Assembly (NCBI GenBank): GCA_024275315.1
Contig: JAJRZK010000029.1
Span: forward strand, 54,516-118,515
DNA length: 64,000 nucleotides
Origin: Nitrospirota bacterium
Lineage (GTDB): Bacteria > Nitrospinota_A > UBA7883
Direction: 5' to 3'
The notes beneath the pieces are model-generated. The model ran no database searches and was not told where the DNA came from. It was given only the letters and a program-made list of their open reading frames with translations. Below are positions 5,735 through 52,686 of the stretch, in pieces. Positions within the stretch are counted from its first letter, which is position 1. Each line of letters opens with the position of its first letter. Position numbers and translations under genes: made by a program.

Positions 5735-5881
5735 ATGAAAAACGGGATTGATAACAACAGCCTTTTGGAACAGGCGATGGCCGAGGCAATGCGCTCATCG
5801 GGACCATCGCCAAGTTCCGCCACGAGCCACACCAGCGGTGGCATATGGACGGCCCCACCTTATGACAGGCGATCAGGGTAG
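5735..5881 (+). CDS. Possible 48-aa small protein upstream of the SGNH genes
   Basis: ATG..TAG frame: MKNGIDNNSLLEQAMAEAMRSSGPSPSSATSHTSGGIWTAPPYDRRSG; below the ORF-track cutoff. Confidence 0.3.
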   Translation: MKNGIDNNSLLEQAMAEAMRSSGPSPSSATSHTSGGIWTAPPYDRRSG

Positions 5882-5885
5882 CGTC

Positions 5886-16647: not shown

Positions 16648-18669
16648 TCAATTAACCTTGATCAGACGATACTCCTTGTTTGAAGCCACTTCAGACAGGT
16701 AAAAATCGACAAGGTTATCCGGTATGTTGTTCGGGAACTTTCTATTTATAAACAAATAGCCTATCTTGCGTTCCTTTAAAAACGCTACGTTCTCCATATC
16801 AAACCGCCTGTCCCAAAACCATTTCATATCTTCGAGCCTGCGTCTGTCCTGCTTGGTGTGCAGGTTGTTATAGACAAAGTTGGAGGCGTAAAACTGGTGG
16901 CCGAAAAGCGCAGGGTATAAAACGTTTCGATATTTTCGTCTGTTGTCCTCCACTGGGTATGCGTGCTGGTTCGTCGCGATAACTGAATCCAAAGGCGCGG
17001 CGGACAACACCTCCTTCACCTTTTTGACATCCACCATTTCAGAATAATAGGCAGGAGGCCTGGCAAAGCCCAGGGCGTACATCGTCGCCATAACGGCCAC
17101 ACAGCAGATGGCCAGCCTCTTCTGCCAGGCAGGGTATTTGCAGTATGTCTCATACATGATCAGGGACCCCATCAATACAAGCAGGGATTGGCCTATGCGA
17201 AGCGAATGAACGGAAAATCCGGCCCGGGTGTATGTCTGGCTATATGTTACACCGAGAATTTCCTGGTAAAGCCGGTCAAGCTCCTCTCCGGCCTTGAACA
17301 CAATAATAAACGGCAGAAGATAGAGGAAGAATATGACAAGCAGGGTGTACCCATGCGGGCTAAAAATGGACCACAGCTCGGACACACGCCTCGGGCTACA
17401 AAATCTGAGTAAATAAATCGCCGTAGCCAGGAACACAAAAAGTGTCGAGACGCGGAACAAAAGCGACATGAGCGTTCCAACAAATTTGTACACTCCGCCT
17501 GTGGGCAGTCCGAATCCGTCCCACAAATAGCTTACGATCACGGGGATATGGGTAAAATACTGGAATCCATACCCTTTCCCGATCAAAACACTGAAACCTT
17601 CGATCCTCAGCATACCGAAAATCTGGAAAAACAGCGTCATCCCGAGGGCGACCAGCCCCGCAAGGAAAGGAGCCGTTTCCTTTTTTGCAACCAGCCTCCA
17701 TATGGCGTACAGCGCATACGCTATCGCGAAAGATAAAAAACCCTGCGGACGCACGAAGCTTGCATAACCCAGCAACGGCGCGGCTATATAATATCGTTTA
17801 TGGATCAGCAACCCTGCAAACGGGATGAACAGGCTGAATACCAGCAACTCCGCGCCGACCATTCCGTTTAGCATAAACAGTTGAGGTTGCATGTATGGCT
17901 CATAACCCGGCAACAGCGACACATCACGGGAAAAGGCCAGCCAATACAGGGCGAGCCCGATGTCAACATCGAAATATAAAACGAACGAAGCTACAGCCAG
18001 CGACATGGCTATATAGTTCGAACGGTGATCGACACCGCCAGGGCGGAGCGCCACCATAACAAAACCCGCGATTATCCACATGCGGAAAAGGGCGCTGGCG
18101 AGGATATAATAGGCCGGCCCCAACGGGATGAAAAACATTTTCGCCAACAGAGACGCTATCGCTCCAAACCCCACATGATACCTGGTGGGTTTACAGCAAA
18201 ACGACAGGTCATCCGGAACGCATTTTTTCATCAGCGCCAACCCATGGGAAAAATGCCACGGCTGGTCTGTGTATAGATACAGGTTCGGCGTCGCGGCCAA
18301 TCCGTTGTAAAACAGATACCATGCTATCGGTAGACATATCGCGCCCATCATCCCTGAAAGGATCACCGCCTGGGTGATTGTCTGAGTCCTGTCGAGCCTG
18401 TGACTGCCTTTTATAATAATGTCCCGATTGATCCCGACAGCGGCAAGCGTCAGCCCGCCCGACGCCAGCCCCATCAGAAAAACCGGAAGTCCCAACAGAC
18501 AGAACAGTTGTCTGAACGTCGCCAACAACACGAAAAACAGCATAGTCCTGACAGACAGGTCGGCAAATTCTGCAAAAACGTCCGCTCCGGCTGATACGCT
18601 CCTGTAAAACCGGAATGCAAAACACCCCCAAAACGTCCAGCATGAAAAAGCGAAAATAATTTCCGTCAT
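16648..18669 (-). CDS. Large polytopic membrane protein
   Basis: 673 aa with many TM segments in the glycan locus. Confidence 0.55.
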   Translation of the reverse strand: MTEIIFAFSCWTFWGCFAFRFYRSVSAGADVFAEFADLSVRTMLFFVLLATFRQLFCLLGLPVFLMGLASGGLTLAAVGINRDIIIKGSHRLDRTQTITQAVILSGMMGAICLPIAWYLFYNGLAATPNLYLYTDQPWHFSHGLALMKKCVPDDLSFCCKPTRYHVGFGAIASLLAKMFFIPLGPAYYILASALFRMWIIAGFVMVALRPGGVDHRSNYIAMSLAVASFVLYFDVDIGLALYWLAFSRDVSLLPGYEPYMQPQLFMLNGMVGAELLVFSLFIPFAGLLIHKRYYIAAPLLGYASFVRPQGFLSFAIAYALYAIWRLVAKKETAPFLAGLVALGMTLFFQIFGMLRIEGFSVLIGKGYGFQYFTHIPVIVSYLWDGFGLPTGGVYKFVGTLMSLLFRVSTLFVFLATAIYLLRFCSPRRVSELWSIFSPHGYTLLVIFFLYLLPFIIVFKAGEELDRLYQEILGVTYSQTYTRAGFSVHSLRIGQSLLVLMGSLIMYETYCKYPAWQKRLAICCVAVMATMYALGFARPPAYYSEMVDVKKVKEVLSAAPLDSVIATNQHAYPVEDNRRKYRNVLYPALFGHQFYASNFVYNNLHTKQDRRRLEDMKWFWDRRFDMENVAFLKERKIGYLFINRKFPNNIPDNLVDFYLSEVASNKEYRLIKVN

Positions 18670-28376: not shown

Positions 28377-29606
28377 ATGATTCTGCGAAAAGAAGCGAAA
28401 AACATTATCGACAACACCATAGCCCCTATTGACACCGTTGAAAAAATCAGCCTCATAAATTGTCACGCCCGAATACTGGCCGAGGACGCCATATCCGATG
28501 TGGATATTCCGCCCTTTAACCGGGCCACAATGGATGGGTATGCCGTGATCGCATCTGACAGACCGGGAAAATACGAAGTCGCAGAAGACATACCGGCGGG
28601 AACATTCCCCAAGGTAACCCTCACCCGCGGCAAGGTGTCTAGAATAATGACAGGCGCGCCGCTGCCCTGTGGAGCCGACGCCGTTGTCGCAGTGGAGAGC
28701 ACCGGTGGTTTTGTAGGCGTCGGCCAGATGGCTGAAATAAATCGGGGTGTTACCATCGGTAAAAATGTCGCTCCGAAAGGCGAAGACCTTAACAAGGGTG
28801 ATTTGGCGCTTAAACGGGGTGTGTTAATAGGACCTGCGGAAATGGCCCTGCTCGCGTCTGTGGGGTGTGATCCTGTGACCGTATACAAAAAACCGCGGGT
28901 CACCATTATTTCCACCGGTGACGAACTCGTCGAGCCGAACAAAATACCAGCCCCCGGCCAGATAAGAAACTCCAACGCCTATTCCATGTTTTCGCAGGTT
29001 TCTGGTATGGGGATCGAGCCTGCCGGTCTTTATGTGGCCTCTGACAACCAGGACGATCTGGAGGGAAAAATCAGGAGAGCGTCAATTTCCGATTTTCTGC
29101 TGGTGTCGGGAGGCGTCTCGGCCGGTGAGCGGGATATTGTCCCGTCCACGCTAAAAAAATGCGGTTATGACATTGTGTTCCACAAGGTGAGCATAAAACC
29201 GGGAAAACCGGTCCTGTTCGGTAAGGGAAAAGATAACCGTTTCGTTTTTGGCGTACCTGGCAATCCGGTCTCTTCAATTGTGGTGTTCGAGCTTTTCATA
29301 CGCCCTGCCATCCGCAAATTCGCCCGAATGCCAGACCCTGGCGACGCAGGGTTCATGGTGAAGCTGGCCAGCGATTATAAACGCAGGAACGCCTCTCGCG
29401 AGGAATATGTCCCTGTAAAGCTGGTAAGGGACGGCTCCGGATTCGTGGCGGAGCTGGTTTCATATCATGGTTCCGGCCATTTCGCCGCTCTGGCCACAGC
29501 CAATGGCTGGATCAGGGCGCCTATAGGAACCAGCAAGCTTCACGCCGGATCTTTTGTGGAAGCGATGCTGTTTCCACCTTCAATTCAGAAGATGGGAATA
29601 GTATGA
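28377..29606 (+). CDS. moeA: Molybdopterin molybdenumtransferase MoeA
   Basis: PPFNRATMDGYAVIASD, IISTGDELVEP, VSGGVSAGERD, GVPGNPVSSIVVFELFIRPAI. Confidence 0.95.
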   Translation: MILRKEAKNIIDNTIAPIDTVEKISLINCHARILAEDAISDVDIPPFNRATMDGYAVIASDRPGKYEVAEDIPAGTFPKVTLTRGKVSRIMTGAPLPCGADAVVAVESTGGFVGVGQMAEINRGVTIGKNVAPKGEDLNKGDLALKRGVLIGPAEMALLASVGCDPVTVYKKPRVTIISTGDELVEPNKIPAPGQIRNSNAYSMFSQVSGMGIEPAGLYVASDNQDDLEGKIRRASISDFLLVSGGVSAGERDIVPSTLKKCGYDIVFHKVSIKPGKPVLFGKGKDNRFVFGVPGNPVSSIVVFELFIRPAIRKFARMPDPGDAGFMVKLASDYKRRNASREEYVPVKLVRDGSGFVAELVSYHGSGHFAALATANGWIRAPIGTSKLHAGSFVEAMLFPPSIQKMGIV

Positions 29607-34279: not shown

Positions 34280-35779
34280 CTACTCCTTAACCTGCAACCG
34301 CACAGCATGACGACCTAGCCGCATGTCGCCCGATATCAGAACACCTTCCTTGACATCGGCCATTGTGACGATAGGAAACAGCTTGATAAAAATCGCATAC
34401 AGGAACGCGAAATATGCGAACGAGCCCAGTATCACCGAAAACTCCGTAATTGACGGGAAATAGTCTGTCCACATGTAGGCGTTGTCCCTGTGTGTGAGCA
34501 CCGGTACGACGATAAGATAACGCTCGATGTACATACCGCAGTTTACCAGCAGGGTTATGAAAAACATCGCAACCATGCTCCGCCGAACCCGACGCCAGCT
34601 CATCAGGAAAATGTTGAGCACCGACCCGCCGATCATAATCCAGAGGAAAAGCGAAAAACGCTCACCCTGCCACTCAAAAATGGCCCATTCCTCCGGCTTG
34701 TGGGAATACCAGACCACGTTGAACTCGCAGAAGTAAAAGTATGTCCAGATCAGCGCTATGGTGACAAGGAGCTTGGCCAGACAGTCTATGTGCAAAGTCC
34801 GTATGACATTGTCAAGATTGAATATCCAGCGAAGAACGATCATAAGGGTTATGACCGCCGCTATGCCGGAATATATGGCCCCCACCACAAAATAGGGGCC
34901 GAATATCGTCGTGTGCCAGCCCGGTGTCATGGTCATGGCGAAATCCCATGAAACGATCGTGTGAACCGATGGCGCTATGCACAGGATAATGACCGCCAGA
35001 AACAGCGAGCACTTGTTGTAAACAGACCATTCCCGGTGACTTCCGCGCCAACCAAGCGCGAGCACCTTGAGATAGTGTCTACGCCAGTTATTGCTCGCGA
35101 TGGCCCGGTCCCGCGCAACCGCCAGGTCAGGCAAAAGCCCGATGTACAGAAAAGTTATCGACCCTGTCATGTATATGCCGATCGCACAAAAATCCCACAT
35201 CAGGGGCGACTTGAAATTCGGCCACAGCATACGCTGGTTCGGCAGGGGAAACATGTAGTAGACCCGCCACGCCCGACCGACATGGATAAGAGGGAACAGG
35301 CCCGCCACCATCAGTGAAAAAGCGGTCATGGCCTCCGCGGCCCGCAATATCGGCCTGCGCCAGTTGGCCTGGGTAAGCCTCAGTATGGAAGAGACTATAG
35401 TGCCCGAATGGGACAACCCCACCCAGAAAACGAAAGTGGCTATATATGCGCCCCAGAAAAGGGGCTCGTGCATGCCCGTCTGCCCCAGTCCCACAAAAAG
35501 CTGGTACGTAAACCAGCCAAGCCCGTTGGCCATGACAATGCCAAGCCCGAGAACGAAAATAAAATAGGCTGGGGTCGTGGTGAACAGAGGCCGCAGGGTG
35601 TGGTCATTAAACTCTTTTTCACTGAGGAATATATCCGCGTCGTCATATCCGGATCTGGCCGGCATCGTCTCCGGATCCCTGTAGGTCTCCAGCTCCGGCA
35701 ACGCCATGACATCGCCATGACTCCCCGCCCCGGCAGTGGCGGCGTGGGATCGTTTAATGTTCTCAGATGACATCGGCAA
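34280..35779 (-). CDS. actC: Alternative complex III subunit ActC (NrfD/PsrC-like)
   Basis: Polytopic; FWVGLSHSGTIVSSILRLTQANWRRPILRAAEAMT; WDFAMTMTPGWHTTIFGPYFVVGAIYSG. Confidence 0.92.
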   Translation of the reverse strand: MPMSSENIKRSHAATAGAGSHGDVMALPELETYRDPETMPARSGYDDADIFLSEKEFNDHTLRPLFTTTPAYFIFVLGLGIVMANGLGWFTYQLFVGLGQTGMHEPLFWGAYIATFVFWVGLSHSGTIVSSILRLTQANWRRPILRAAEAMTAFSLMVAGLFPLIHVGRAWRVYYMFPLPNQRMLWPNFKSPLMWDFCAIGIYMTGSITFLYIGLLPDLAVARDRAIASNNWRRHYLKVLALGWRGSHREWSVYNKCSLFLAVIILCIAPSVHTIVSWDFAMTMTPGWHTTIFGPYFVVGAIYSGIAAVITLMIVLRWIFNLDNVIRTLHIDCLAKLLVTIALIWTYFYFCEFNVVWYSHKPEEWAIFEWQGERFSLFLWIMIGGSVLNIFLMSWRRVRRSMVAMFFITLLVNCGMYIERYLIVVPVLTHRDNAYMWTDYFPSITEFSVILGSFAYFAFLYAIFIKLFPIVTMADVKEGVLISGDMRLGRHAVRLQVKE

Positions 35780-36488
35780 CCCCTCCCTTCAGATACATCA
35801 CGGAAGGATGCGTGCCCTTATCTTCAAAAAGGCGAATCATCCGGCCGCTGTGGACCAACTCGTGGACCTTGCTTTCATGGTCGTTGATGTTCCCGAATGT
35901 TATCGCGTTGGTGGGGCAGGTTTGCGCGCACGCCGGCTGGATCTCCCCGTCTTCCACATCCCTGCCTTCATCCTTGGCGGTGTCTTTGCCTCTCCGGATT
36001 CTCTGCATGCACATCGTACATTTCTCCATGATGCCCTTTTCACGCAGGGAAACATCGGGGTTGAGCTGGTTGCTCTCCGGCCCTTCGAAGTTGGAGTCGT
36101 ACCAGTTGAAATACCTGACGGAATAGGGGCAGTTGTTGCCGCAAAACCTGGTGCCTATACAGCGGTTGTAAACCTGGACGTTGAGACCTTCCGGGTTCTG
36201 GTATGTGGCCCAGACGGGGCATACGGATTCACATGGGGCGTAATCGCAGTGCTGGCACATCATGGGCAGGAACCGTACCTTCACATCCGGATACGTGCCT
36301 TCTATATAGCGCTCTATCCGGAGCCAATGCATTTTCCGGCCGAGCTCCGCCTGCTTTTCACCGACAGTCGCGATATTGTTCTCCGCCTGGCAGGCCACAA
36401 CGCATGCGCCGCACCCGTTGCACCGGTCCAGGTCGATTGTCATCGCCCATTTGTAATCATTCTGTTTCTTATAATTGAAAGATTTCAC
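35763..36488 (-). CDS. Alternative complex III iron-sulfur subunit ActB2 (separate gene)
   Basis: CNGCGACVVAC, CQHCDYAPCESVCP, CIGTRFCGNNCPYSVRYFNW, CTMC...CAQTCP. Confidence 0.9.
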   Translation of the reverse strand: MKSFNYKKQNDYKWAMTIDLDRCNGCGACVVACQAENNIATVGEKQAELGRKMHWLRIERYIEGTYPDVKVRFLPMMCQHCDYAPCESVCPVWATYQNPEGLNVQVYNRCIGTRFCGNNCPYSVRYFNWYDSNFEGPESNQLNPDVSLREKGIMEKCTMCMQRIRRGKDTAKDEGRDVEDGEIQPACAQTCPTNAITFGNINDHESKVHELVHSGRMIRLFEDKGTHPSVMYLKGGVADVI

Positions 36489-38715
36489 CCTTATACTCCC
36501 CTTCAGGATGAGCGCTTCGAAGCATAACCACCGACCCTCCCGCCTTTTTCACGTTTACCTTGCATGATCTCCAGGCCAGCGCTCCAGATTGGCTGTCCAT
36601 CCCGGTTCCAATCAGTTTCATCGGATTGGCGCCGCGGTTGTTGGCGATCTCCCCATACTCGGTGTGGCCATACCCCAATGGTATAGAGATCACATCCGGG
36701 CGAATACCGACATATGGAAACACAGGCGCGGTAATCGACCCGTGCGGCGATGTCACAGTCACCAGGTCCCCTTCTATCAGGCCGTACTTAGAGGCGGTAG
36801 CGGGGTTCATCTCCACCCAGGACTGCCACATCAACGTGGTGATCGGGTCCGGGGCTTCCTGTAGCCATCCCTGATTGGCGCCGGCGCCGCGTCCCATGTG
36901 CACCGTCTGGTAAAGATGCAGATGATATGGAAAACCGCTCCCCCCCTCAAAGCTGGGATCGTTCACCTTGAGCCTGTTCTTCATCGCCCAAAGCTTGTCG
37001 TTCGACGGCGTTTCGCTGGGTTCCTGCTCTTCTTCGGATGGCCACCACCCCCCTTTGCTCAGCAAGGTCCGCCAAGCGGCGTCGCGGGACAAAGTCGGGT
37101 CTATCTCCAGCATTTCCGCGCGAAACTTGTCCACAATTTTCCGGATATACTCCTCGCCGTTTTTGGCGGGTATCTTCATCCCGGCTTTCCCGGCGGCGGC
37201 CAAAAGAACGTCGGTGGCGGACCGGGTGTCATTAAAAGGTCGAATGACCGGCTGTCGCAGATTGAGAACAGGCACACCCGGGACAAAGTTGGGCACCTGG
37301 GCGGACCAGCTCTCCAGCCAGTGATGATCGGGAAGGACCAGATCCGCCTGGGACGTGGTTTCGTCCATGAAATTGGCGAAAGCGGCCACAAACCCGACCT
37401 TGCCAAGCGCCGTCTTGACATCAAGACTCGCAGGTGTGTCGAACACCGGATTGGTATGATGAATCACACCGACCTTGTATTTCCCGGCCGACATGGCGTC
37501 GACTAATTCTTTTAATCTTCTGAATGTCTGTTTTTCCGGAGCAAGACCGAACCATGCGAGCATACGCTGTTTCAGGTCCTGGTCGGACACGGGAGTGTGC
37601 CTTGGTTTGATGCGAAGCTTTTCCCGCCCGATCTCGTAGGAGACCATGTTCAAAAACGCCACCGCGTCGAGCCCCTCGACACCATTCGAGTATCCGGCGA
37701 TGTCGTCCCCCGCTATGGCGACCGCGGGAGCCTCGTCTATGAATGGCCGGGCGATCCTGCGAATCAGCTCCGCCTTGATCTCCACCTTATCGGCGACTTT
37801 TTCCGGCGCATACTCCGCGAGCGCCTCGCTCCAGCGGCCCAGCGCGTTTCTCTGTATGGATTGGGCCAGCCCTCTGCTTATCACGGATTCGACAACCACA
37901 TGGGCGATCGACAGGGCGAGAACCCCCAGGTAACCGGGAGGAACGGGAAACCATTTGTCACACGACGCCGCGGTGGATGAAAGGCGGCTACCGCAATAGA
38001 CAAGCCTTCCACGAATGGACGGGCGGTCACGCCTGCTTGCCCCGAAAGACCTGGCGAAAAACACCGGGTTACGGTCCGACTCGAAAATATCAGCCCCCAG
38101 AAGAAGTGAAAACTCCGCGTTTTCAAGGTCAGGGTACGGGGTGTGAGGGTATTCGTTGAGGGTGGCCCCTCCGGCAAACTGTGATTCCTTCCCGGGGTCG
38201 TGATTCGTGGCCATGGTAAAACCGCTCATCTTGCCCAGAATAGCGTTTGCGACTCCGGCTGTGATATCGTTATTTCCGCTGTTAAGATAGAAGACGCTCC
38301 CCTCGGCCCCGGCCAGCTTCTCGCCCAGCGTCGCGATGGCTTTTTCCCATGTCACCGGCTCGAACTTGCCAGACCCTTTGGCCCCCTTGCGCATCAACGG
38401 CTGGGTGAGCCGATCCCTGTGATACACTCTCTGCACCGCCGCCTGACCCTTCGCGCAAAGTTTCCCGCCGTTTACAGGATGTACGGCGTTACCTTCTATT
38501 TTCTTGGCCCTGCCATTGACCGTACGCACTATAACACCGCAACCCGAGTTGCATTCGGCGCAGGTTGTGGCATACCAGTAACCATCGACAGGGTTAACTC
38601 CGTCGTCCGGCCGTGTTACGAACGGGATAACTTTTTTCGTAACTTGACCACAGGCGCCAAGGACGCCTGACGAGGCGGTTACCGCCCCAACCTTTAAAAA
38701 CGAACGTCTATCCAT
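36469..38715 (-). CDS. Alternative complex III large subunit ActB1 (molybdopterin oxidoreductase-like), TAT signal
   Basis: MDRRSFLKVGAVTASSGVLGAC; ATTCAECNSGCGVIVRTVNGRAKKIEGNAVHPVNGGKLCAKGQA; ADLVLPDHHWLESWS. Confidence 0.88.
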   Translation of the reverse strand: MDRRSFLKVGAVTASSGVLGACGQVTKKVIPFVTRPDDGVNPVDGYWYATTCAECNSGCGVIVRTVNGRAKKIEGNAVHPVNGGKLCAKGQAAVQRVYHRDRLTQPLMRKGAKGSGKFEPVTWEKAIATLGEKLAGAEGSVFYLNSGNNDITAGVANAILGKMSGFTMATNHDPGKESQFAGGATLNEYPHTPYPDLENAEFSLLLGADIFESDRNPVFFARSFGASRRDRPSIRGRLVYCGSRLSSTAASCDKWFPVPPGYLGVLALSIAHVVVESVISRGLAQSIQRNALGRWSEALAEYAPEKVADKVEIKAELIRRIARPFIDEAPAVAIAGDDIAGYSNGVEGLDAVAFLNMVSYEIGREKLRIKPRHTPVSDQDLKQRMLAWFGLAPEKQTFRRLKELVDAMSAGKYKVGVIHHTNPVFDTPASLDVKTALGKVGFVAAFANFMDETTSQADLVLPDHHWLESWSAQVPNFVPGVPVLNLRQPVIRPFNDTRSATDVLLAAAGKAGMKIPAKNGEEYIRKIVDKFRAEMLEIDPTLSRDAAWRTLLSKGGWWPSEEEQEPSETPSNDKLWAMKNRLKVNDPSFEGGSGFPYHLHLYQTVHMGRGAGANQGWLQEAPDPITTLMWQSWVEMNPATASKYGLIEGDLVTVTSPHGSITAPVFPYVGIRPDVISIPLGYGHTEYGEIANNRGANPMKLIGTGMDSQSGALAWRSCKVNVKKAGGSVVMLRSAHPEGEYKGEIFQL

Positions 38716-40780: not shown

Positions 40781-41059
40781 TCAGGGGCATGTCTGCGTCG
40801 TCGCCATGCTTTTCTCATATTTTTTGGCCTGCCTTACAAACTCGAGAACAAAACCGTTTATCGCCCTAAGCAGGAAACCTTGCCCTGACGAAGATGACAA
40901 CTCGCCGACCCAAAAAACGGAGCGGACAAACGCCACGCAGGGCAAAAACACCAGACGAAAATAAACGGCGATTTTAAAAGTCGATATTTCCGCAGAGTCC
41001 GAACTCTGGAGGGACGATTTCAGGTCTATCTCCCTTATGACACTGCCCTGAACTGTCAT
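40781..41059 (-). CDS. Small protein resembling the C-terminal segment of GT2 glycosyltransferases; possible remnant
   Basis: ATGA overlap with upstream cytochrome stop; FRLVFLPCVAFVRSVFWVGELSSSSGQGFLLRAINGFVLEFVRQAKKYE. Confidence 0.35.
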   Translation of the reverse strand: MTVQGSVIREIDLKSSLQSSDSAEISTFKIAVYFRLVFLPCVAFVRSVFWVGELSSSSGQGFLLRAINGFVLEFVRQAKKYEKSMATTQTCP

Positions 41060-42372
41060 TCTAACCGGTCTTGTTCCAGTGATTTTGATTTTAGCCACAA
41101 CGCGCCGCAAAACCCGAGAAACACCACCCACGACACCGCCAGGCCTATTTTGCGGGTGTGTATCTCCGCCCACATCTGGTCAACGGTCTCTTGCACATTC
41201 CGGGAAACATTTATAATTTTACCGGATCGTTTTTTTAGCGTTTCCACATCGAGCTTGTGGGTCAGCGCGTTGAGCTCCTTGAGGTTGTCCGCCGTTTTGT
41301 CCATGTTCTCCACAAGACCGGAGACCTCAAATCCGCCATGGGCGTTGTTTATGAAATCATCCAGACCTTCCCTGGCTTTCGCCACGGCGGATGTCGTGGA
41401 TATCATCACAGCCTGTATTTCCTCCCCCACCTTGTAGGCCTTGTCGGTTTTGTCATGGCACCCGATACAATCTATATCCTCGTCGCCCGTAAACTTTTTT
41501 ACAGTCGGGCGCAAAACATCGTGATTGTTATGGCACGAAAGGCAAATAGGCTCCCCCTCCTTCTCATATACTTTCCAGTGTGGGCTGGACTTGAAATACT
41601 CCGCCTGGGAAGCGTGACAGTTGAAACAGACGGTCCGCACCCTGGCGGATTTTGAAGATATGACGCCATGGTTGCTGTGGCAGTTCACGCAGGTGGGAAC
41701 CAGCAGATCACCCTTGGAAAACAGTTCGTAATGCCTGCTTTTCTTATACAGCTCAAGCTGATTGAACGGTTTTCTGCGTTTTTTGAATATCTCTTTTTTG
41801 GCGTGGCAACCGCCGCACATCTGCGGAATATTGGATCTGTGTACTGTGGATTTCGGGTCCTTGACCTTTAATATCTTGTGCTTGCCATGACAACTGACGC
41901 ACGAAGGGGCTTGCTCGTCTCCGGAGGAGAGCTTCCTGCCGTGGACACTGCCGGAATAAAGCTGATGCTGGTCCGCCCGCTGGTTATACGCTCTCATAAG
42001 CTTAGCGTCAGAATGGCATTTGGAGCACAGCTTCGGTATGTCCATTGGTTTGGGCTTGCCGATAAATCCCGCTTCCGGCTCCATGGCCAGCTCCTCGTCG
42101 AAAGGGGCCCCGCCGTGGCAGTCCGCGCATCTGACGCCGACTTCCCGATGGACCGACTGCATCCAATCTTTTACAGGGGGTGTGAGAACTTCGTCTTCAA
42201 GATCGGTATGGCAGATTATGCAGTTGTAGTTGTCCGGAATGGCTGATTTTATATCAGCCGAAAACGAGGCGGGATCCTTTTTCGCCGCCGGCTTACCTTC
42301 GACTGTTGAAGACACCGCCGGCTGGGCTACCATGCAACACAGCAACAGAGCCAGAAAAAGAAAACGAAGCAT
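41056..42372 (-). CDS. Multiheme cytochrome c (nine CXXCH) with C-terminal TM anchor
   Basis: CIICH, CADCH, CSKCH, CVSCH, CGGCH, CVNCH, CFNCH, CLSCH, CIGCH; signal MLRFLFLALLLCCMVAQPAVSS; TM IGLAVSWVVFLGFCGALWL. Confidence 0.9.
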   Translation of the reverse strand: MLRFLFLALLLCCMVAQPAVSSTVEGKPAAKKDPASFSADIKSAIPDNYNCIICHTDLEDEVLTPPVKDWMQSVHREVGVRCADCHGGAPFDEELAMEPEAGFIGKPKPMDIPKLCSKCHSDAKLMRAYNQRADQHQLYSGSVHGRKLSSGDEQAPSCVSCHGKHKILKVKDPKSTVHRSNIPQMCGGCHAKKEIFKKRRKPFNQLELYKKSRHYELFSKGDLLVPTCVNCHSNHGVISSKSARVRTVCFNCHASQAEYFKSSPHWKVYEKEGEPICLSCHNNHDVLRPTVKKFTGDEDIDCIGCHDKTDKAYKVGEEIQAVMISTTSAVAKAREGLDDFINNAHGGFEVSGLVENMDKTADNLKELNALTHKLDVETLKKRSGKIINVSRNVQETVDQMWAEIHTRKIGLAVSWVVFLGFCGALWLKSKSLEQDRLE

Positions 42373-42517
42373 ATTACCCCTCGTTATTCCCGATTCCCCG
42401 GCGCGTCCTCCACCCCTGTCAATCATCGGCGACAAAACACATCAACTGGGACGAAACTACGCTTAAAGCCGGTATGACAACAACGACCCAGATCAAATTC
42501 ATATAATTACCAGGCTG

Positions 42518-44027: not shown

Positions 44028-44882
44028 TCAATCCAGGCCGGAGATGGTCAACTGTTTGTATTTGCCTTTCAACAATCTCGTCACAGGCCCAGGCCCGGGG
44101 ATGTCGAATAGTCCGTCGACACAACTAACAGGGACAATCTCCAAAAGGGAGTTGGTGACAAAGACCTCGCTGGCCAGAGAAACTGAATCCGGGCCGAACC
44201 TGCCTTGCGCCGTTTGGATGTTCTCGTGTCTGGCCATGTCCAGCGCAATCCTCCTGGTGACGCCTTGCAGGATTCCGCATTCGCATGACGGTGTGAAAAG
44301 CGTGTCGTCTTTCAGCCAAAACAGGTTTACGGCCACGCCGGAAGCCACGTGACCATCGGTCGTAAGGACCAGCGCCTCGTCGGCGCCCTTTTTCCTGGCT
44401 TCGTCCAGTGTCAGCACCGCCTCAAGCGAACTTATGGTTTTAAGACCGCTCAATGGCGACGAGGGGTTTTTGTTTATGGATACACGCGCCAACCTGAAAC
44501 CTGCGTTGAACATCCGCTCCGACACCGGCTCATACGGCCTTAACGTAAGAGTCCATGAAGGCCGGTCGCATCCTTTGGTCCCATAGCCCCTGGGACCACG
44601 GCCCCTGGTGACGGTCAGCCGCGCCACGCCCCTGTCCACGGAGTTTTTATCCGCAAGGCCCGCCAGAGAATTTCTGACGGTCTCGTTGTCGAAGGGAATC
44701 TCCAGGTGTATCCTGTCTGCGCCGTCCCGGAGCCGGTCGAGATGACGCTCCAGCCCGAAAGGTTTACCGGCGTACAACGGTATGGTCTCAAACAAGCCAT
44801 CACCAAGCGTATACCCCCTGTCCTCCAGATCAACCAACGGTCTATCGGTCATCCCTCCGTCAACTATCGCCCACCGGCTCAT
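44028..44882 (-). CDS. pabC: Aminodeoxychorismate lyase-like PLP enzyme (fold type IV)
   Basis: DRGYTLGDGLFETIPLYAGKPFGLERHLDRL, adjacent to pabB; class IV aminotransferase motifs. Confidence 0.8.
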   Translation of the reverse strand: MSRWAIVDGGMTDRPLVDLEDRGYTLGDGLFETIPLYAGKPFGLERHLDRLRDGADRIHLEIPFDNETVRNSLAGLADKNSVDRGVARLTVTRGRGPRGYGTKGCDRPSWTLTLRPYEPVSERMFNAGFRLARVSINKNPSSPLSGLKTISSLEAVLTLDEARKKGADEALVLTTDGHVASGVAVNLFWLKDDTLFTPSCECGILQGVTRRIALDMARHENIQTAQGRFGPDSVSLASEVFVTNSLLEIVPVSCVDGLFDIPGPGPVTRLLKGKYKQLTISGLD

Positions 44883-46276
44883 CCCTTCACAGCCTCCATC
44901 ATCGCCCTGGCCTTGTCCATCGTCTCGTTAAATTCGTCTTGCGCGTCGGACAGCCAGGTTATACCTCCACCGGCGTGGAACTTGTACCGTCCACCAGCGT
45001 GAACGATGGTCCTGATAACGATATTCGTGTCCATGGCTCCGTCAAATCCTATGTATCCCATCGCTCCGCAATACGCCCCCCTTGGAACCGGTTCGAGCTC
45101 GTCAATAATCTCCATCGCCCTGATTTTTGGAGCGCCGGTGACAGACCCACCCGGGAAAGCGGTTTTGAGCAGGTCAACGGGGCCGTATTCCGGGGCGATC
45201 TTCCCTTCCACCGTGGAGACAAGGTGGAACACGGTCGGAAACTCCTCCAGCGCGCAAAGCTGCGGCGTCTTGACGGAATTCGGCACGCAGACTTTTGACA
45301 GGTCGTTTCTTAACAGATCGACTATCATCACGTTCTCCGCCCTGTCCTTATCGCTTTGCCGCAGGTCCGCTCTCAACAACCTGTCCTCGCGCAACGCGGC
45401 CCCTCTCGGCCTGGTCCCCTTTATGGGGCGCGCCTGGACATCGCCACCTGTCATTTTGAGAAACCTTTCCGGAGACGATGACATTATCCGCGCCGGTCCG
45501 GTGTTGAGATACGCCGCAAAAGGCGCCGGGCTGACACAGCGCAACCGCATATAGAGACTGACCGGATCCACGGTTTCCGGAACGGTAAAACGCTGGGCGA
45601 TGTTCACCTGGTAACAGTCCCCATCTTCTATGTAGCGCCGCACCCGCTCCACCGCGGCCATGAAAGATTCTTTCGAAAAGTCGCTCACCGGCAAAACATC
45701 GTCGCCGGTGAGTGACGAAACAGGCTTTCGCCCGGAAGCTTTAGACGACATGATTTTTTCAAGACTGCGCCGCAGGTCGCCCAGCTCCTCGCCTCCATCG
45801 CGCCCCTCCTCCACGCTCACCACCAGCGACATCTCCGATTTTGCGTGATCAAACGCGATCAACCTGTCGTACAGCCCCAGCCACAAGTCCCCCTCCTCGG
45901 TTTTACCTGTCCTGCAAAGTCGCGTGGAAGGCTCGCAATGGGTCAGAAGACCATACCCCCAGAACCCGGCCACACCTCCGGTAAAATGGGGAAATCCATC
46001 GTTTGGCTCCGCGCTCCACCGGGCCAGGGTCCTGTCCAGCAGATCAAACGGGTCGTCACTGAGCTGACGAACCGAATGACCGGAGGAGAAAACGAACCTG
46101 TCACCCGACCCGCTGATGGTTCCGAATGGCTCCCACATTATGTACGACCATCGGCCTGTCCCCTCCGGGTCCATGCCGCTGTCGAGCCACAAAAGGCCGG
46201 GCCTGTCGCCAAGCTGGCCGATCAGGCGATCCGGCTCGATCCATGGCGATTTGCATGTAACAGTTTTTCGTTTCAT
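44879..46276 (-). CDS. pabB: Aminodeoxychorismate synthase component I
   Basis: VNIAQRF, SSSPERFLKM, ARPIKGTRPRG, GGSVTGAPKIRAMEIIDELEPVPRGAYCGAMGY. Confidence 0.88.
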   Translation of the reverse strand: MKRKTVTCKSPWIEPDRLIGQLGDRPGLLWLDSGMDPEGTGRWSYIMWEPFGTISGSGDRFVFSSGHSVRQLSDDPFDLLDRTLARWSAEPNDGFPHFTGGVAGFWGYGLLTHCEPSTRLCRTGKTEEGDLWLGLYDRLIAFDHAKSEMSLVVSVEEGRDGGEELGDLRRSLEKIMSSKASGRKPVSSLTGDDVLPVSDFSKESFMAAVERVRRYIEDGDCYQVNIAQRFTVPETVDPVSLYMRLRCVSPAPFAAYLNTGPARIMSSSPERFLKMTGGDVQARPIKGTRPRGAALREDRLLRADLRQSDKDRAENVMIVDLLRNDLSKVCVPNSVKTPQLCALEEFPTVFHLVSTVEGKIAPEYGPVDLLKTAFPGGSVTGAPKIRAMEIIDELEPVPRGAYCGAMGYIGFDGAMDTNIVIRTIVHAGGRYKFHAGGGITWLSDAQDEFNETMDKARAMMEAVKG

Positions 46277-46444: not shown

Positions 46445-47392
46445 ATGATTTCTTTAAACCATTTGGCCCTGAAGGCGATCGAGCCGCTGGTGAACGACGC
46501 CGAAAAATACGGGGTGTCGGTGCTAAAATCGGAGTACGGAGCCACTATAGTGGATTGCGGCGTCAAGGTCCCGGGCAGTTACGGGGCAGGCAGGTTGTTT
46601 GCCATGGGATGCCTGGCTGGGCTGGCTGATGTCGCCATTACCTCCACCACCGTCGGAGAACATCATCTACCGACGGTCTGGGTGGCGGTTGACCGGCAGG
46701 TGGAAGGTTGCATGGCCTCGCAGTACGCTGGATGGGCGATAAACAAAGGCGGCTATTTCGCCATGGGTTCCGGTCCCGCACGGGCGCTGGTTTCCACCGA
46801 AAATATTTTTGAACATATCGGCCACAAGGAAAAAAGCGACATGGCCCTGGTTTGCCTGGAGTCCCGGAAATATCCCCCGGACGAGGTAATCGATTATATT
46901 TGCGCCAAGGCGGGTGTGGCGCCGGAGAACCTGACGATCCTGATCGCGCCGACAGGGTCTATAGCGGGGTCGGTGCAAATCGCCGCCAGGATCGTGGAAA
47001 CCGCCATCCATAAAATGCATGAGCTGGGTTTCAAGCTGGAGTCGATTCTGTACGGTTGCGGAACATGCCCCATAGCGCCGGTTACGCCTGACGACATGGA
47101 AGCCATAGGCAGAACCAACGACAGCGTCTTGTATGGAGGCTGGGCGAAGGTTACAGTGGATTGCGACGATCTTACGCTAAAGGAACTTGTCGACCGGATA
47201 CCCTCGTGCGCGTCAAAAGACTATGGCAAAACTTTTGGCGAGCTATACAGGAAATACGGGGACTTTTACAAGATCGACCCATTACTGTTTTCACCAGCTG
47301 TCATAGCCGTCAGCAACATTGGCTCCGGCAAAACCTATCGGGCCGGCGCGTTAAACCCCGATATCCTGTCAAAATCTTTTTTTCCAGGCTGA
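46445..47392 (+). CDS. mch: Methenyltetrahydromethanopterin cyclohydrolase
   Basis: LNHLALKAIEPLVNDAEKYGV, VDCGVKVPGSYGAG, MASQYAGWAI, YGCGTCPIAPV. Confidence 0.93.
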   Translation: MISLNHLALKAIEPLVNDAEKYGVSVLKSEYGATIVDCGVKVPGSYGAGRLFAMGCLAGLADVAITSTTVGEHHLPTVWVAVDRQVEGCMASQYAGWAINKGGYFAMGSGPARALVSTENIFEHIGHKEKSDMALVCLESRKYPPDEVIDYICAKAGVAPENLTILIAPTGSIAGSVQIAARIVETAIHKMHELGFKLESILYGCGTCPIAPVTPDDMEAIGRTNDSVLYGGWAKVTVDCDDLTLKELVDRIPSCASKDYGKTFGELYRKYGDFYKIDPLLFSPAVIAVSNIGSGKTYRAGALNPDILSKSFFPG

Positions 47393-48267
47393 TGCGGGCG
47401 GCTATCCTGCGCTCCAGGGAGGGCTGGCACATCGACCAGCTTGAATCGGAGCTTAAACGGCGAGGCGTCGAGGTCTTGAAGTTTTCCATAACGGATATTT
47501 CCCTGTCCGTTCAAACGACCCCATCCGTTAAATGCAAAGGGTTCGATCTGACCACACTCGACGCGCTCATCATCCGCATCATACCGCTGGGATCCTTGGA
47601 GCAACTGATGTTCCGGATGAACGCACTTGGCATTCTGGAAAAATCGGGCGTTAAGATCATCAACTCCCCGGCTTCGATTGAAAAGACCGTGGACAAGTCA
47701 TATACATCCGGCCTGCTGGCCCGGGCGGGTCTGCCCACCCCGAGGACCTGTGTCCTACAGCTGTTCGACGAGGCGATGGACGCGTTCGAAAAAATGGGTG
47801 ACGTGGTGGTAAAACCACTCCACGGCTCGTGCGGAATGGGGATGACGAGGATAAGCGACAAGGATATCGCCTACCGCGTGTTCAGAACCATGGAGATGAA
47901 CCGCTACATATATTACATACAGGAATTTATAGACCATGGACAGGAGGATACGCGGGTGTTTGTGGCAAACTCAAAGGTGGTCGCGGCGATGAAGAGAATC
48001 GGCGGGGGCTGGAAAAACAACTTTACGCAGGGGACAAGAGTCGAGCCGTGCGATCTTGGTGAGCAACGGGCCGCAAAGGCTGTTGAGGCGGCCAGGGCGC
48101 TGGGGTTGTGTTACGCCGGTGTGGATTTTCTTGATTCGGCCGACGGCTCTGAATATATAATAGAGGTCAACGGGATTCCGGGGTGGAAAGGTCTTCAACG
48201 AACAACCGATATCCGCATATCCGAAAAAATCATTGATTGCGTAACGGATGAAACTTTCGAAACCTGA
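47392..48267 (+). CDS. RimK/MptN-like ATP-grasp ligase, H4MPT-cluster type
   Basis: ATG overlaps mch TGA (TGATG); VVKPLHGSCGMGMTRI, GVDFLDSADGSEYIIEVNGIPGWKGLQ; upstream ORF extension judged spurious. Confidence 0.82.
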   Translation: MRAAILRSREGWHIDQLESELKRRGVEVLKFSITDISLSVQTTPSVKCKGFDLTTLDALIIRIIPLGSLEQLMFRMNALGILEKSGVKIINSPASIEKTVDKSYTSGLLARAGLPTPRTCVLQLFDEAMDAFEKMGDVVVKPLHGSCGMGMTRISDKDIAYRVFRTMEMNRYIYYIQEFIDHGQEDTRVFVANSKVVAAMKRIGGGWKNNFTQGTRVEPCDLGEQRAAKAVEAARALGLCYAGVDFLDSADGSEYIIEVNGIPGWKGLQRTTDIRISEKIIDCVTDETFET

Positions 48268-49120
48268 AATAATCGGCGAAGCTGTCCAGATGGCCTGCCT
48301 GTTTGAAGTCAGTAGCGAAAAACCCGGCAACGTCACGCCCACCAGGCAGTTCTCCGATCTGTCATACGCCGATTTTCTCCATAACGCCGTGGTGCTTGGC
48401 CGCGTTTTCAGAAACAACGCAAAAGCAAGAGTTGGGGAAATTATTTTGCAATCGGTAAGCCAATGCGTGGCTAGGACCCGCACCAACGTCAACCTGGGAA
48501 CCATCCTGTTGCTGGCCCCGCTGGCGCGGGCTTATTACAACCGCGGCAAGATCGACTCGTCTGCCGTAAAGCCGGTGCTGGCTTCACTTACAACAACAGA
48601 CGCGGATAAGGCGTATAAAGCCATTCGTCTGGCCAATCCCGGAGGACTGGGGCATGTCAAAAACCAGGATGTAAACAAAAAACCGTCCGTCACCCTGTTG
48701 CGCGCCATGAAACTGGCCGCGGAAAGGGACTGGATCGCATTTGAATACGCCAACAATTTCACCATCACTTTCGAGCTTGGCGTTCCCGAACTTGTAAGCA
48801 ACATTGAATCGGGACTGGTGTTGAGAGAGGCGATTGTACAGACATTCCTAAGGCTGTTGTACTTGTACCCGGATTCCCATGTGGCAAGGCGGACATCCAG
48901 AGAGACGGCGCTGAAAATTTCTGAAAAGGCCGGCGGAATTCTCCGGAAAGGAGGGCTCGCCTCCCCTTCGGGGCGCAGGGCGGTGTATGAGTTTGACCAT
49001 TACCTCAGATCGGACTCCAACATGCTAAATCCCGGAACCACGGCGGACCTCGTCGCCGCCGCGCTTTTTGTCTATTTTATCCAGAACCGCTGTGACACGT
49101 CGTCACCGGGGAAACACTAG
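48248..49120 (+). CDS. Triphosphoribosyl-dephospho-CoA synthase-like (CitG/MdcB family) protein of H4MPT cluster
   Basis: ACLFEVSSEKPGNVTPTRQFSDLSYADFL; RTNVNLGTILLLAPLA. Confidence 0.82.
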   Translation: MKLSKPEIIGEAVQMACLFEVSSEKPGNVTPTRQFSDLSYADFLHNAVVLGRVFRNNAKARVGEIILQSVSQCVARTRTNVNLGTILLLAPLARAYYNRGKIDSSAVKPVLASLTTTDADKAYKAIRLANPGGLGHVKNQDVNKKPSVTLLRAMKLAAERDWIAFEYANNFTITFELGVPELVSNIESGLVLREAIVQTFLRLLYLYPDSHVARRTSRETALKISEKAGGILRKGGLASPSGRRAVYEFDHYLRSDSNMLNPGTTADLVAAALFVYFIQNRCDTSSPGKH

Positions 49121-49123
49121 GCG

Positions 49124-49642
49124 ATGAGCGATAAAATCGGCTGGGCCATAACCGGCGCCGGACACATGATACAACAGACAAAACAGATCATCCTCGACCT
49201 GGAGGGCGTGGAGCTTTTTCTGTCGAAAGCCGCGGAGGATGTTTTGCGTATATACAAGATCAACCTGGACCGGTTCCCCCGCGCGATACACAGGGAAACC
49301 GGAGCTTGCTCCCCGATTTGCGGCCAGTTCGCCATGGGAAAATATCGCGGGCTCATCGTCGCTCCGGCCACGTCCAACACAGTGGCCAAATTCGTAAGCG
49401 GTATCGCGGACACGCTGGTGACCAACATCTTCGCCCAGGCGGGCAAAAGTCATGTGCCGATCGTGGTGATGCCGACCGATATTAAGCCAGTCGTCGAATC
49501 GATGGGGCCAAGAAAGCCGGTGATGGTATACCCCCGGAAAGTGGACCTGGAAAACACGGCCAGGCTTGCCGACTTCGACGGTGTCCGTGTGGTCAAATCC
49601 ATCGAGCAGTTGAAAAGCGTCGTAATGGAAATGTTCGGTTGA
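49124..49642 (+). CDS. Flavoprotein, DmrB/archaeoflavoprotein-like
   Basis: WAITGAGHMIQQT, GLIVAPATSNTVAKFVSGIADTLVTNIFAQAGK. Confidence 0.8.
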   Translation: MSDKIGWAITGAGHMIQQTKQIILDLEGVELFLSKAAEDVLRIYKINLDRFPRAIHRETGACSPICGQFAMGKYRGLIVAPATSNTVAKFVSGIADTLVTNIFAQAGKSHVPIVVMPTDIKPVVESMGPRKPVMVYPRKVDLENTARLADFDGVRVVKSIEQLKSVVMEMFG

Positions 49643-50970
49643 AAACCAGGCATATTAACTTTATCACCAGAGACCTGGCCGCTCCGGCGCTGGCGCGGCT
49701 CCTGGCCAGGCATTCTTTTGATTTCAGCTACGACATAATATCCTTGCCGGGCCAGGTGGCGGCGCTGATGACCACAGGATGGATGGCCAGGCGGCTACCT
49801 GAAAACCTGCCTGGAGAAATCATGATTCCAGGAGGGTGCAAAGGGAGCCTGGAGGAAATCCACAATGTGACCAGCGCCAGGGTGACACGAGGCCCCGTCG
49901 ACCTTAACGGCCTGCCGGAGCATTTCGGAAAAGCTGAGGCCCGTGTCAAGTATGGCCGGCCCCGTCTTAAAATCGTCGCGGAAATCGTAGACGCCCCAAC
50001 CATTTCGATCCGCAAGATCGTGGCGAAGGCCCGTTATTACAGGAGAGCCGGCGCTGACTGGGTGGACCTTGGATGCGTAAACGGGGTCCCGTTCGCGCAT
50101 CTCGACGAAACCGTCCGGGAGCTGCGCTGGCTTGGGTTTAACGTGTCTGTGGATTCGTCCAACCCCGAAGAGCTCCTGACGGCCGGCAGGGCTGGCGCCG
50201 GGTTGTTTCTTTCCGTCAATTCTCAAAATATTCACATAGCCCCGGAGTTGGATGGCAAAGTTGTCGTGATCCCGGATCCGGGCAAGGGCTTGGCCAGCTT
50301 GTATAAAAACGCGAAAACCCTGGCCGGCCTGGGGGTTGATTATATACTGGATCCAATACTCGACCCTCTATGCCTTGGCGCGGCGGAGTCGATCGCTAGG
50401 TATGCCGCCGTGCGGCGAAAGTTTAAGAACACTCCGATCCTCATGGGTGTGGGCAATATCTCGGAGCTTGCCGGTGTGGACAATATCGGGATAAGCGCGT
50501 TTCTGGCCGGCGTATGCGCCGAGTTGAAGATTGATTATGCGCTCACCACGGAGGTTGCGCGATGGAACCGGGATTCTGTCAGACAGCTATCCATAGCGCG
50601 AAACATAATGGAGCATGCGGTATACGAGCGTATAGCGCCAAAACGTTTCGACAACCGGTTGCTGGTGGCCAAAGACGCCGACAGGCCAAGGTTGTCCAGC
50701 CGTCAGATCAAGGGGATATGTGGAAAGATAAAAGACAGGAACTACAGGATTTTTGTCGCGGATGGTTTCATCCATCTGTTCAACAAAGATGTTTATATCA
50801 AGACCAAAACCGTGGATGATATTTTTGAAAAGTTGCGTGTCGACAACCCGTCTCATGCTTTTTACCTGGGCAGGGAGCTTCAGAAAGCGGAAACGGCGCT
50901 GGCGCTGGGTAAGGATTATACCCAGGAAAAACCGCTCGACTGGGGTTATATTTCGGGAAACAGGCGATGA
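49639..50970 (+). CDS. Dihydropteroate synthase-related H4MPT biosynthesis protein
   Basis: GADWVDLGCVNGVP, GFNVSVDSSNPEEL, YILDPILDP, ILMGVGNISELAGVDNIG; H4MPT cluster. Confidence 0.8.
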   Translation: MKTRHINFITRDLAAPALARLLARHSFDFSYDIISLPGQVAALMTTGWMARRLPENLPGEIMIPGGCKGSLEEIHNVTSARVTRGPVDLNGLPEHFGKAEARVKYGRPRLKIVAEIVDAPTISIRKIVAKARYYRRAGADWVDLGCVNGVPFAHLDETVRELRWLGFNVSVDSSNPEELLTAGRAGAGLFLSVNSQNIHIAPELDGKVVVIPDPGKGLASLYKNAKTLAGLGVDYILDPILDPLCLGAAESIARYAAVRRKFKNTPILMGVGNISELAGVDNIGISAFLAGVCAELKIDYALTTEVARWNRDSVRQLSIARNIMEHAVYERIAPKRFDNRLLVAKDADRPRLSSRQIKGICGKIKDRNYRIFVADGFIHLFNKDVYIKTKTVDDIFEKLRVDNPSHAFYLGRELQKAETALALGKDYTQEKPLDWGYISGNRR

Positions 50971-51051
50971 GTTATCCAACCACTCCCCGGCTATCTGTCG
51001 GTCCCCGGCTGTCGGTCGGCGTGGCCTGACGCGGCTGTTTTTGGCGCCAAT

Positions 51052-51648
51052 ATGATTATCGAGACGATCGTATCGACACGTTCCGCCAGCGGTTCTGTAA
51101 ACTTCGCCCCGATGGGAGCCACATTCTCCAGCGATGGCAGGGTGGTGTTCGTGGTGTACCATTCAACCCAGACGTACAGAAACCTGGAGGCGAACCTGTC
51201 GGGGGTGATAAATCTTGTCAGCGACGTTACCTTGTTCGTAAAAACCGCCCTATACGATTTCTCGCCGGCCCACGCCCTTTCTAACCATGTCGAAGGGGGG
51301 ATAATGGACCTGGCCGAAGAGGCGGTCGAATTTGAAATAGACAATATAGAGCCTATGGAAGGCAAATCGAAGCTGTCTGGACACGTCGTTTCCAGGAAAA
51401 CCCTTAAAACCCCGGAGGCGGGACTCAACCGTGGCCGCATCGCGGCGATCGAGGCGTTGATAGCGGTGACCAGGATCGGTGTGCTGGACAGGATGGAAAT
51501 AGCGCAAACCATGGAACGATCCCGGGAAATCGTGAACAAGACCGGTGGAGCTAAAGAGCTCGAAGCGATGAAGTTGATAGAGGAGGTTTATGAAAAAGCT
51601 ATCGACGTTGACAGCGAAGACAGCGGCAAACCAGGCTCGAAGCGATGA
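51052..51648 (+). CDS. DUF447 family protein, H4MPT cluster
   Basis: IIETIVSTRSASGSVNFAPMGATF...NLVSDVTLFVKTAL; HVVSRKTLKTPEAGLNRGRIAAIEALIAVTRIGVL. Confidence 0.8.
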   Translation: MIIETIVSTRSASGSVNFAPMGATFSSDGRVVFVVYHSTQTYRNLEANLSGVINLVSDVTLFVKTALYDFSPAHALSNHVEGGIMDLAEEAVEFEIDNIEPMEGKSKLSGHVVSRKTLKTPEAGLNRGRIAAIEALIAVTRIGVLDRMEIAQTMERSREIVNKTGGAKELEAMKLIEEVYEKAIDVDSEDSGKPGSKR

Positions 51649-51745
51649 AGTGATAGAGGGGGTTTGTGAGAAAGCTATCGACGTTGACACCGAGAACAGC
51701 GACAAATCAGGCTCGAAGTGATGAAGTTGATAGAGGAGGTTATGA
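51560..51745 (+). repeat. Tandem duplication: 77 bp + 76 bp + partial third copy
   Basis: tcgaagcgatgaagttgatagaggaggttt...ccaggc (51560-51636), diverged copy 51637-51712, third starts 51713. Confidence 0.9.
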
Positions 51746-52686
51746 ACAAAACCTCTGAGTTGGCGGTTGTGCGGGCGTGGGCGAGGTTGCACCTGGGCCT
51801 GGTGAAGCTATCCGGCGGCTCTCGATACGCCGCGGCCGGGCTGTCGGTGCGCTGGCCCTTTTGCCGGGTGAAAGTAAAAAGAATCACCAGGCAAATCCCC
51901 CGAATAACCGGAACGCCACAAACAAACGGGGTTATAAAAGCCATATGCGCCCATTTCGATGTTCCCGCCCGTTACGAGGCGACTGTAGTCGACCCGTTGC
52001 CACTCCACTCCGGGTTCGGTTCCGGTACCCGGCATGCGTTGGCTATCGCAAGGGGGGTGGTCAACCTGGCGAAAATCAGGGTTTCCACCATACGCCTGGC
52101 GCGTATCCTGGGCAGGGGGAGCCGCTCGATGATGGGGACACTGCTGTTTGGCAAAGGTGGATTCGCCGCCGATAACGGCGACAAAATCGCCTCTGTTTCT
52201 TTCCCGGCCCATTGGCGCGTGGCCATAATCGAGCCTGCGCCGGATCATCGCCCGGCTTTTGTGGCTCATGGAGAAATTGAAAGAGATATTTTCGATGATA
52301 TCGCCCCCTGCTCCGGCAAAGCCGCGATAAAAGTCGTGGATTCTGTTTCCGACATGATCATGGCCGTGGAGCAGGGCGATTTTACCCTGTTCGAAAAGTC
52401 TGTACGGCAATTGCAGAAATCGGCGTCACGCCAGTTCTCAAAACATCAGCGTGGACCCGCGTCATCCCCATCCGGCGTGGCTGTTCTCAAATATTTGCAC
52501 AGGATGGGTGTATTGGCCTGCGGGCAAAGTAGCTGGGGTCCGACCATATTCGCCATTGTCCCGTCAGAGTCGGATGCGAAAACATTGGCCGAAAAAATCG
52601 GCGCTCACGCCAGTTCCGGATCTGTCACGATAACCACCGTAGCCAGGAGCGGGAGCCGGCTGGACAGTTTCGGGCCCCCATGTTGA
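51742..52686 (+). CDS. Beta-ribofuranosylaminobenzene 5'-phosphate (RFAP) synthase
   Basis: VRAWARLHLGLVKLSGGSRYAAAGLSV; PLHSGFGSGTRHALAIARGV; SSWGPTIFAIV; start ATG 51742 after gaggagg. Confidence 0.88.
   Translation: MNKTSELAVVRAWARLHLGLVKLSGGSRYAAAGLSVRWPFCRVKVKRITRQIPRITGTPQTNGVIKAICAHFDVPARYEATVVDPLPLHSGFGSGTRHALAIARGVVNLAKIRVSTIRLARILGRGSRSMMGTLLFGKGGFAADNGDKIASVSFPAHWRVAIIEPAPDHRPAFVAHGEIERDIFDDIAPCSGKAAIKVVDSVSDMIMAVEQGDFTLFEKSVRQLQKSASRQFSKHQRGPASSPSGVAVLKYLHRMGVLACGQSSWGPTIFAIVPSESDAKTLAEKIGAHASSGSVTITTVARSGSRLDSFGPPC

Follow-up and report, generated by a model that had tools for sequence, protein, structure and literature searches.

Bacterial genes for tetrahydromethanopterin (H4MPT) are usually taken as a sign of formaldehyde-oxidising methylotrophy. 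The stretch of Nitrospinota DNA analysed here (64,000 nucleotides, referred to as the window) carries a compact block of such genes at positions 46445-52686, and the question is which one-carbon (C1) route they serve. A sequence-only reading of the same DNA had proposed H4MPT biosynthesis with methenyl-H4MPT cyclohydrolase (Mch) in a bacterium; we confirmed that the block is real and, as judged by profile matches and agreement with the neighbours in proteobacterial islands, that it encodes these functions. We further consider it probable that the window holds the cofactor-making end of a complete C1 module of archaeal type, together with its Mch step, and that this module leads from methylene-H4MPT to CO2 and ends in a selenocysteine (Sec)-containing formylmethanofuran dehydrogenase, FwdDBAC. 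The evidence comprises the presence and conservation of the genes, a TGA codon at the metal-ligand position of FwdB, a codon-frozen hairpin behind it, SelB, and the absence of Fae, Mer and CdhC. As H4MPT genes are here found with a predicted-Sec enzyme at the CO2 level, the route appears archaeal-like rather than the usual bacterial formaldehyde route.

The window's genome has 2.9 Mb in 63 contigs and is 100% complete. Comparisons were made within a family set of seven Nitrospinota genomes (G000 and G017-G022), and gene absences are those of genome searches only.

The H4MPT block

All seven genes that had been described as co-directional and overlapping or closely spaced are present on the + strand. 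The extent given to the block was nevertheless too small, as a pabB gene and a pabC-like gene were missed; these diverge from mch and probably belong to the block. The genes are as follows.

46445-47392, + strand: mch, methenyl-H4MPT cyclohydrolase (TIGR03120, 385 bits, cut-off 229; PF02289; 46% identity to M. kandleri Mch)
47392-48267, + strand: mptN/RimK-like alpha-L-glutamate ligase (NF040720, 269 bits, below the cut-off of 350; RimK subfamily cut-off passed)
48248-49120, + strand: CitG-family (triphosphoribosyl transferase-like) protein (PF01874, 220 bits; adjoins RimK and mch in proteobacterial islands)
49124-49642, + strand: DmrB/AfpA-like flavoprotein (TIGR02700, 124 bits, and TIGR02699, 116 bits, both below cut-off; PF02441 above cut-off)
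49639-50970, + strand: DHPS-like protein, DUF6513 (TIGR00284, 169 bits, below cut-off; PF20123 and PF14251 above cut-off)
51052-51648, + strand: DUF447 protein (PF04289 and PF20766, N- and C-terminal domains, above cut-off)
51742-52686, + strand: divergent RFAP synthase (NF040726, 88 bits, below the cut-off of 328)
44879-46276, - strand: pabB, aminodeoxychorismate synthase component I (TIGR00553, 357.6 bits, cut-off 328.4 passed)
44028-44882, - strand: pabC-like aminodeoxychorismate lyase (TIGR03461, 170.5 bits, cut-off 176.85 just missed)

By its profile score, the assignment of Mch is unambiguous. MptN, the flavoprotein, the DHPS-like protein and RFAP synthase score below the equivalog cut-offs, so that their assignment rests on the combination of genes and on matching proteobacterial neighbours. 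The sequence-only reading had placed both Mch and RFAP synthase in their families: Mch clears its cut-off and RFAP synthase does not, and the latter call is kept despite the weak score because position in the block and tblastn matches agree (31.6% identity to the Azoarcus and 27% to the Thiodictyon RFAP synthase). The pabB product also matches trpE_most (382.6 bits, under that model's own cut-off) and is 44% identical to PabB of the Thiodictyon H4MPT island; the divergent pabB-mch pair is found in two relatives as well (L012 and L014).

The junctions from mch through the DHPS-like gene overlap or almost touch. The start of mptN is ATG 47392, within the mch stop, which corrects an open reading frame (ORF) start at 47161. 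For RFAP synthase, ATG 51742, preceded by GAGGAGGTT, is a likelier start than the alternative GTG 51718. A 76-77 nt tandem duplication at 51558-51741, with two full copies and a partial third, covers the end of DUF447 and the start of RFAP synthase, and GAGGAGGTT lies in its last copy; an older overlapping junction between the two genes seems to have been duplicated.

All seven family genomes have Mch, which was not found in any of 16 further genomes from the class. The full block order is kept in G022, G019 and G017, and the remaining contigs stop inside the block. In an Mch tree of 15 sequences, an analysis that had also been proposed from the sequence alone, the family is recovered as a supported group of its own, separate from six proteobacterial and three archaeal sequences. 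As this tree is unrooted and narrowly sampled, it does not decide the direction of transfer.

FwdB and the rest of the C1 route

The window contains no match to fae or mtdB, as had been noted, and the matches to fhc, fwd and ftr genes that exceed their cut-offs also lie outside it. The rest of the route, expected elsewhere in the genome, was recovered for the most part: MtdB-type protein, Ftr and FwdA (TIGR03121) are each present in all seven family genomes, and Fae is present in none (PF08714, with controls matched; TIGR03126 likewise gave no match in the window's genome). Two of these genes are broken by contig ends: ftr is split across two contigs in G020, and the two ends of FwdA in G000, split at a contig break, share an exact 121-base stretch. 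FwdC scores 253 bits (TIGR03122) and a FwdD-like protein 78 bits, under the cut-off of 175; the fwdD, fwdA and fwdC frames are open beside fwdB. Mer and the acetyl-CoA synthase of carbon monoxide dehydrogenase/acetyl-CoA synthase (CODH/ACS; CdhC, PF03598) were found in none of the seven genomes, and Wood-Ljungdahl autotrophy was rejected on the absence of CdhC. FolE can begin pterin synthesis in bacteria, and mptA was therefore regarded as non-diagnostic for H4MPT.

Among 24 genomes of the phylum, FwdB exceeds the cut-off only in this family. In G022 its frame is interrupted precisely between positions 112 and 118 of the profile, where the codon is TGA, and all six genomes that contain the region (G000 and G018-G022) have this in-frame TGA at the equivalent position; the profile search counts one TGA within each of the six genes. 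These genomes span four genera, with 78-82% protein identity among those compared. The TGA aligns with the metal-ligand (Mo/W) Cys of archaeal FwdB (SVCHGP), a position at which Azospirillum FhcB has SDGLYR. The closest solved relative is archaeal FwdB (396 bits, versus 64 for methylotroph FhcB), identity is 44% to 5t5i_B and 28% to Azospirillum FhcB, and the protein carries an N-terminal 4Fe-4S motif, VVCPFCATLCDD. On these comparisons, FwdB is of the archaeal type and distinct from methylotroph FhcB, which has no cofactor. The methylotroph formaldehyde pathway to which the sequence-only reading pointed is thus not borne out, since Fae is missing and, in place of the supposed FhcB, there is an FwdB of archaeal type whose ligand is predicted to be Sec.

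Behind the TGA, the six genomes share codons +10 to +14 (CTC GGC GGT GCG CCG) exactly, although across the fwdB alignment as a whole just 8 of the 137 degenerate codons for conserved residues are frozen. The frozen codons form the tip of a predicted consensus hairpin resembling a selenocysteine insertion sequence (SECIS). SelB exceeds its cut-off in six of the seven family genomes and is a fragment in the seventh; in G021, selB lies close to fwdDBAC. Taken together, these features make it very likely that the TGA is read as Sec. General reassignment of TGA was rejected, as it is the stop codon of six of the seven genes in the block. Two candidates for selA beside selB were also discarded, one being GAPDH (G022) and the other an unassigned protein (G021).

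Two further observations concern these loci. In the fwdB gene of G018 (L048:956-3754) the frame is lost beyond about position 326 of the profile, the remainder lying in another frame, and in G019 the contig that holds fwdDBAC (C208) also carries, at L046:12476-15856, genes that by eye are HypF-, HypB- and HypA-like hydrogenase maturation genes.

Source and direction of the carbon

In the proposed scheme, pabB and pabC would supply p-aminobenzoate, and H4MPT would be built by RFAP synthase, the DHPS-like and CitG-like proteins, the flavoprotein, DUF447 and the MptN-like ligase. MtdB would interconvert methylene- and methenyl-H4MPT and Mch methenyl- and formyl-H4MPT; Ftr would pass the formyl group to methanofuran, which the cell would also make, and FwdDBAC would interconvert formylmethanofuran and CO2 with TGA-encoded Sec as the Mo/W ligand of FwdB. 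Flux would be mainly oxidative. Its input would come from corrinoid-dependent demethylation, through the cluster before ftr and the corrinoid protein encoded after mtdB, or from formaldehyde that condenses without the help of Fae. Oxidation with corrinoid-bound methyl groups or free formaldehyde as input is the most likely use.

Corrinoid genes stand beside both ftr and mtdB, which suggests methyl groups as the carbon source. Upstream of ftr is a cluster encoding a QueG-like Fe-S protein, two MtaA/CmuA-like methyltransferases, a corrinoid protein, a RACE-type activator and a Gfo/Idh/MocA oxidoreductase, and its linkage to ftr was seen in every family genome as far as contigs reach; in G000 (C21; L009:9092-17544) ftr is the last gene. 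A peroxiredoxin-like gene lies between the oxidoreductase and ftr in G000, G020 and G021. An MtgC-like corrinoid protein follows mtdB in all seven genomes (cut by the contig end in G020), and in G000 and G022 it is followed by a two-component pair and a short-chain dehydrogenase/reductase (SDR; L042:14805-15551 and L045:4850-5593). The G000 SDR scores best as a pteridine reductase, at 263 bits (below the cut-off of 288), and is a candidate dihydromethanopterin reductase that could catalyse the final reduction in H4MPT synthesis.

Several observations weigh against the oxidative, Sec-dependent module. The direction of flux is not readable from sequence. The hairpin, at z -1.5, is not significant alone and shows almost no covariation, and the scan for tRNA-Sec, limited to stretches that make up a small part of the genomes, found none. 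No genes for methanofuran biosynthesis were located. Neither methyltransferase of the ftr cluster is of the pterin-binding type, both resembling thiol-type MtaA. Searches of the seven genomes for Mer and MetF identified no enzyme oxidising methyl-H4MPT: because Mer is absent, and MetF matches occur in only five of seven genomes and come from fusion-length open frames of about 613 aa (that of G018, the only one to be classified, is PRK08645, a fusion of the methionine type), the step from methyl- to methylene-H4MPT lacks an assigned enzyme. A more specific proposal can be put forward only tentatively, namely that the family may oxidise corrinoid-borne methyl groups to CO2 by a Fae-less H4MPT/methanofuran route with a Sec-containing Fwd and a bacterial SECIS, the missing methyl-oxidising enzyme possibly being among the conserved ftr-cluster genes.

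It is rather unlikely that the module instead runs reductively, with a ferredoxin-using autotroph taking CO2 to methylene-H4MPT through Sec-Fwd, Ftr, Mch and MtdB and so gaining a formate-free supply of C1 units from which serine, methionine or corrinoid methyl groups would be made. MtdB enzymes use NAD(P) and as a rule work oxidatively, the corrinoid methyltransferases beside ftr suggest methyl input, and there is no CdhC for acetyl-CoA synthesis. However, Fwd is a CO2 reductase in methanogens, and reductive tricarboxylic acid cycle autotrophy has been reported for the phylum Nitrospinota (PMC10839748) and for order UBA7883 (PMC9802188).

A methylotroph-style pathway that oxidises or detoxifies formaldehyde, in which Fae was lost or diverged and formaldehyde condenses spontaneously with H4MPT, would account for the MtdB, Mch, Ftr and FwdA families shared with methylotrophs and for the block genes shared with proteobacterial islands; we nevertheless regard it as improbable, given that Fae is absent from all seven genomes, that FwdB differs from the cofactor-less FhcB and that Mch forms its own group. 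Least probable is a true stop at the TGA, leaving a fwdB pseudogene or two polypeptides and a module defunct at the formylmethanofuran/CO2 step: the frame is indeed interrupted, and that of G018 is lost again further on, but the codon recurs at one catalytic residue across the four genera with protein identity kept, a codon-frozen stretch follows it, and FwdD, FwdA and FwdC are open alongside.

This Nitrospinota lineage has H4MPT genes without Fae or the Fhc hydrolase and with a predicted Se-dependent archaeal-type enzyme at the CO2 end. If this reading is correct, methylotrophy should not be called from H4MPT genes alone, and automatic annotation will split fwdB at the TGA. Selenocysteine FwdB, described for methanogens (PMC13188914), would reach beyond them.

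Elsewhere, the window encodes MoeA (28377-29606), an NrfD-family membrane protein (34280-35779), a molybdopterin oxidoreductase (36469-38715) and a multihaem cytochrome c (41056-42435), and three ORFs of 389-673 aa (5748-7121, 9794-10963 and 16648-18669) have no Pfam match at E 0.001. An Rfam scan of the window gave no match. The promoter scan gave four sites against 3.9 expected; as this is no excess, no promoter claim is made. Terminator-like sites, of which 12 were found where 7.6 would be expected, played no part in the interpretation.

Comparison with known systems

Adam et al. 2019 reportedly surveyed bacterial H4MPT enzymes and may already list this lineage. In the literature searched, which excluded that survey, we found no predicted-Sec bacterial FwdB in a full H4MPT set without Fae, and no report of the present finding under Nitrospinota and tetrahydromethanopterin. 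The word methanopterin is absent from a published survey of Nitrospinota (PMC10839748), which does not seem to describe the C1 capacity of this lineage of the sulfur cycle. Elsewhere, 149 bacterial FwdB matches have been ascribed to transfer from Archaea (PMC10100899); the text of that paper makes no mention of Nitrospinota, and in the parts of it consulted no bacterial FwdB with Sec was found as part of a full H4MPT route.

The order mch-RimK-CitG is shared with the proteobacterial H4MPT islands for formaldehyde oxidation on plasmids of Azoarcus KH32C, Thiodictyon, Aquabacterium and Azospirillum TSH58, and the order flavoprotein-DUF6513-DUF447 is shared by the Nitrospinota block with Azoarcus and Aquabacterium. 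The local arrangement is therefore not new, and the co-directional order adds little to ordering the pathway, contrary to what had been hoped of it. These islands likewise hold RFAP synthase and MtdB, with pabB in Thiodictyon; unlike them, the Nitrospinota family has no Fae, has mtdB, ftr and fwd located elsewhere, and has a predicted-Sec FwdB instead of FhcB.

The likeness to archaeal Fwd/Fmd (5t5i) extends from the identity and 4Fe-4S motif of FwdB to a separate FwdD, and FwdA is nearer to archaeal Fwd than to methylotroph FhcA. The family differs from the archaeal systems in its bacterial host, in having ftr at a separate site, in the lack of FwdF and FwdG adjoining fwdDBAC in the loci read, and in the position of the predicted hairpin, which, as in the genes of bacterial selenoproteins, follows the TGA directly. 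A bacterial archaeal-type Fwd with an N-terminal 4Fe-4S domain is also encoded by fwdDBA-ftr-fwdC of the Hakuba Actinobacteria (PMC7325909), which have a catalytic Cys118 and CODH/ACS and in which no H4MPT synthesis genes were seen; the Nitrospinota family, by comparison, has no CdhC and combines a predicted Sec with genes for H4MPT synthesis.

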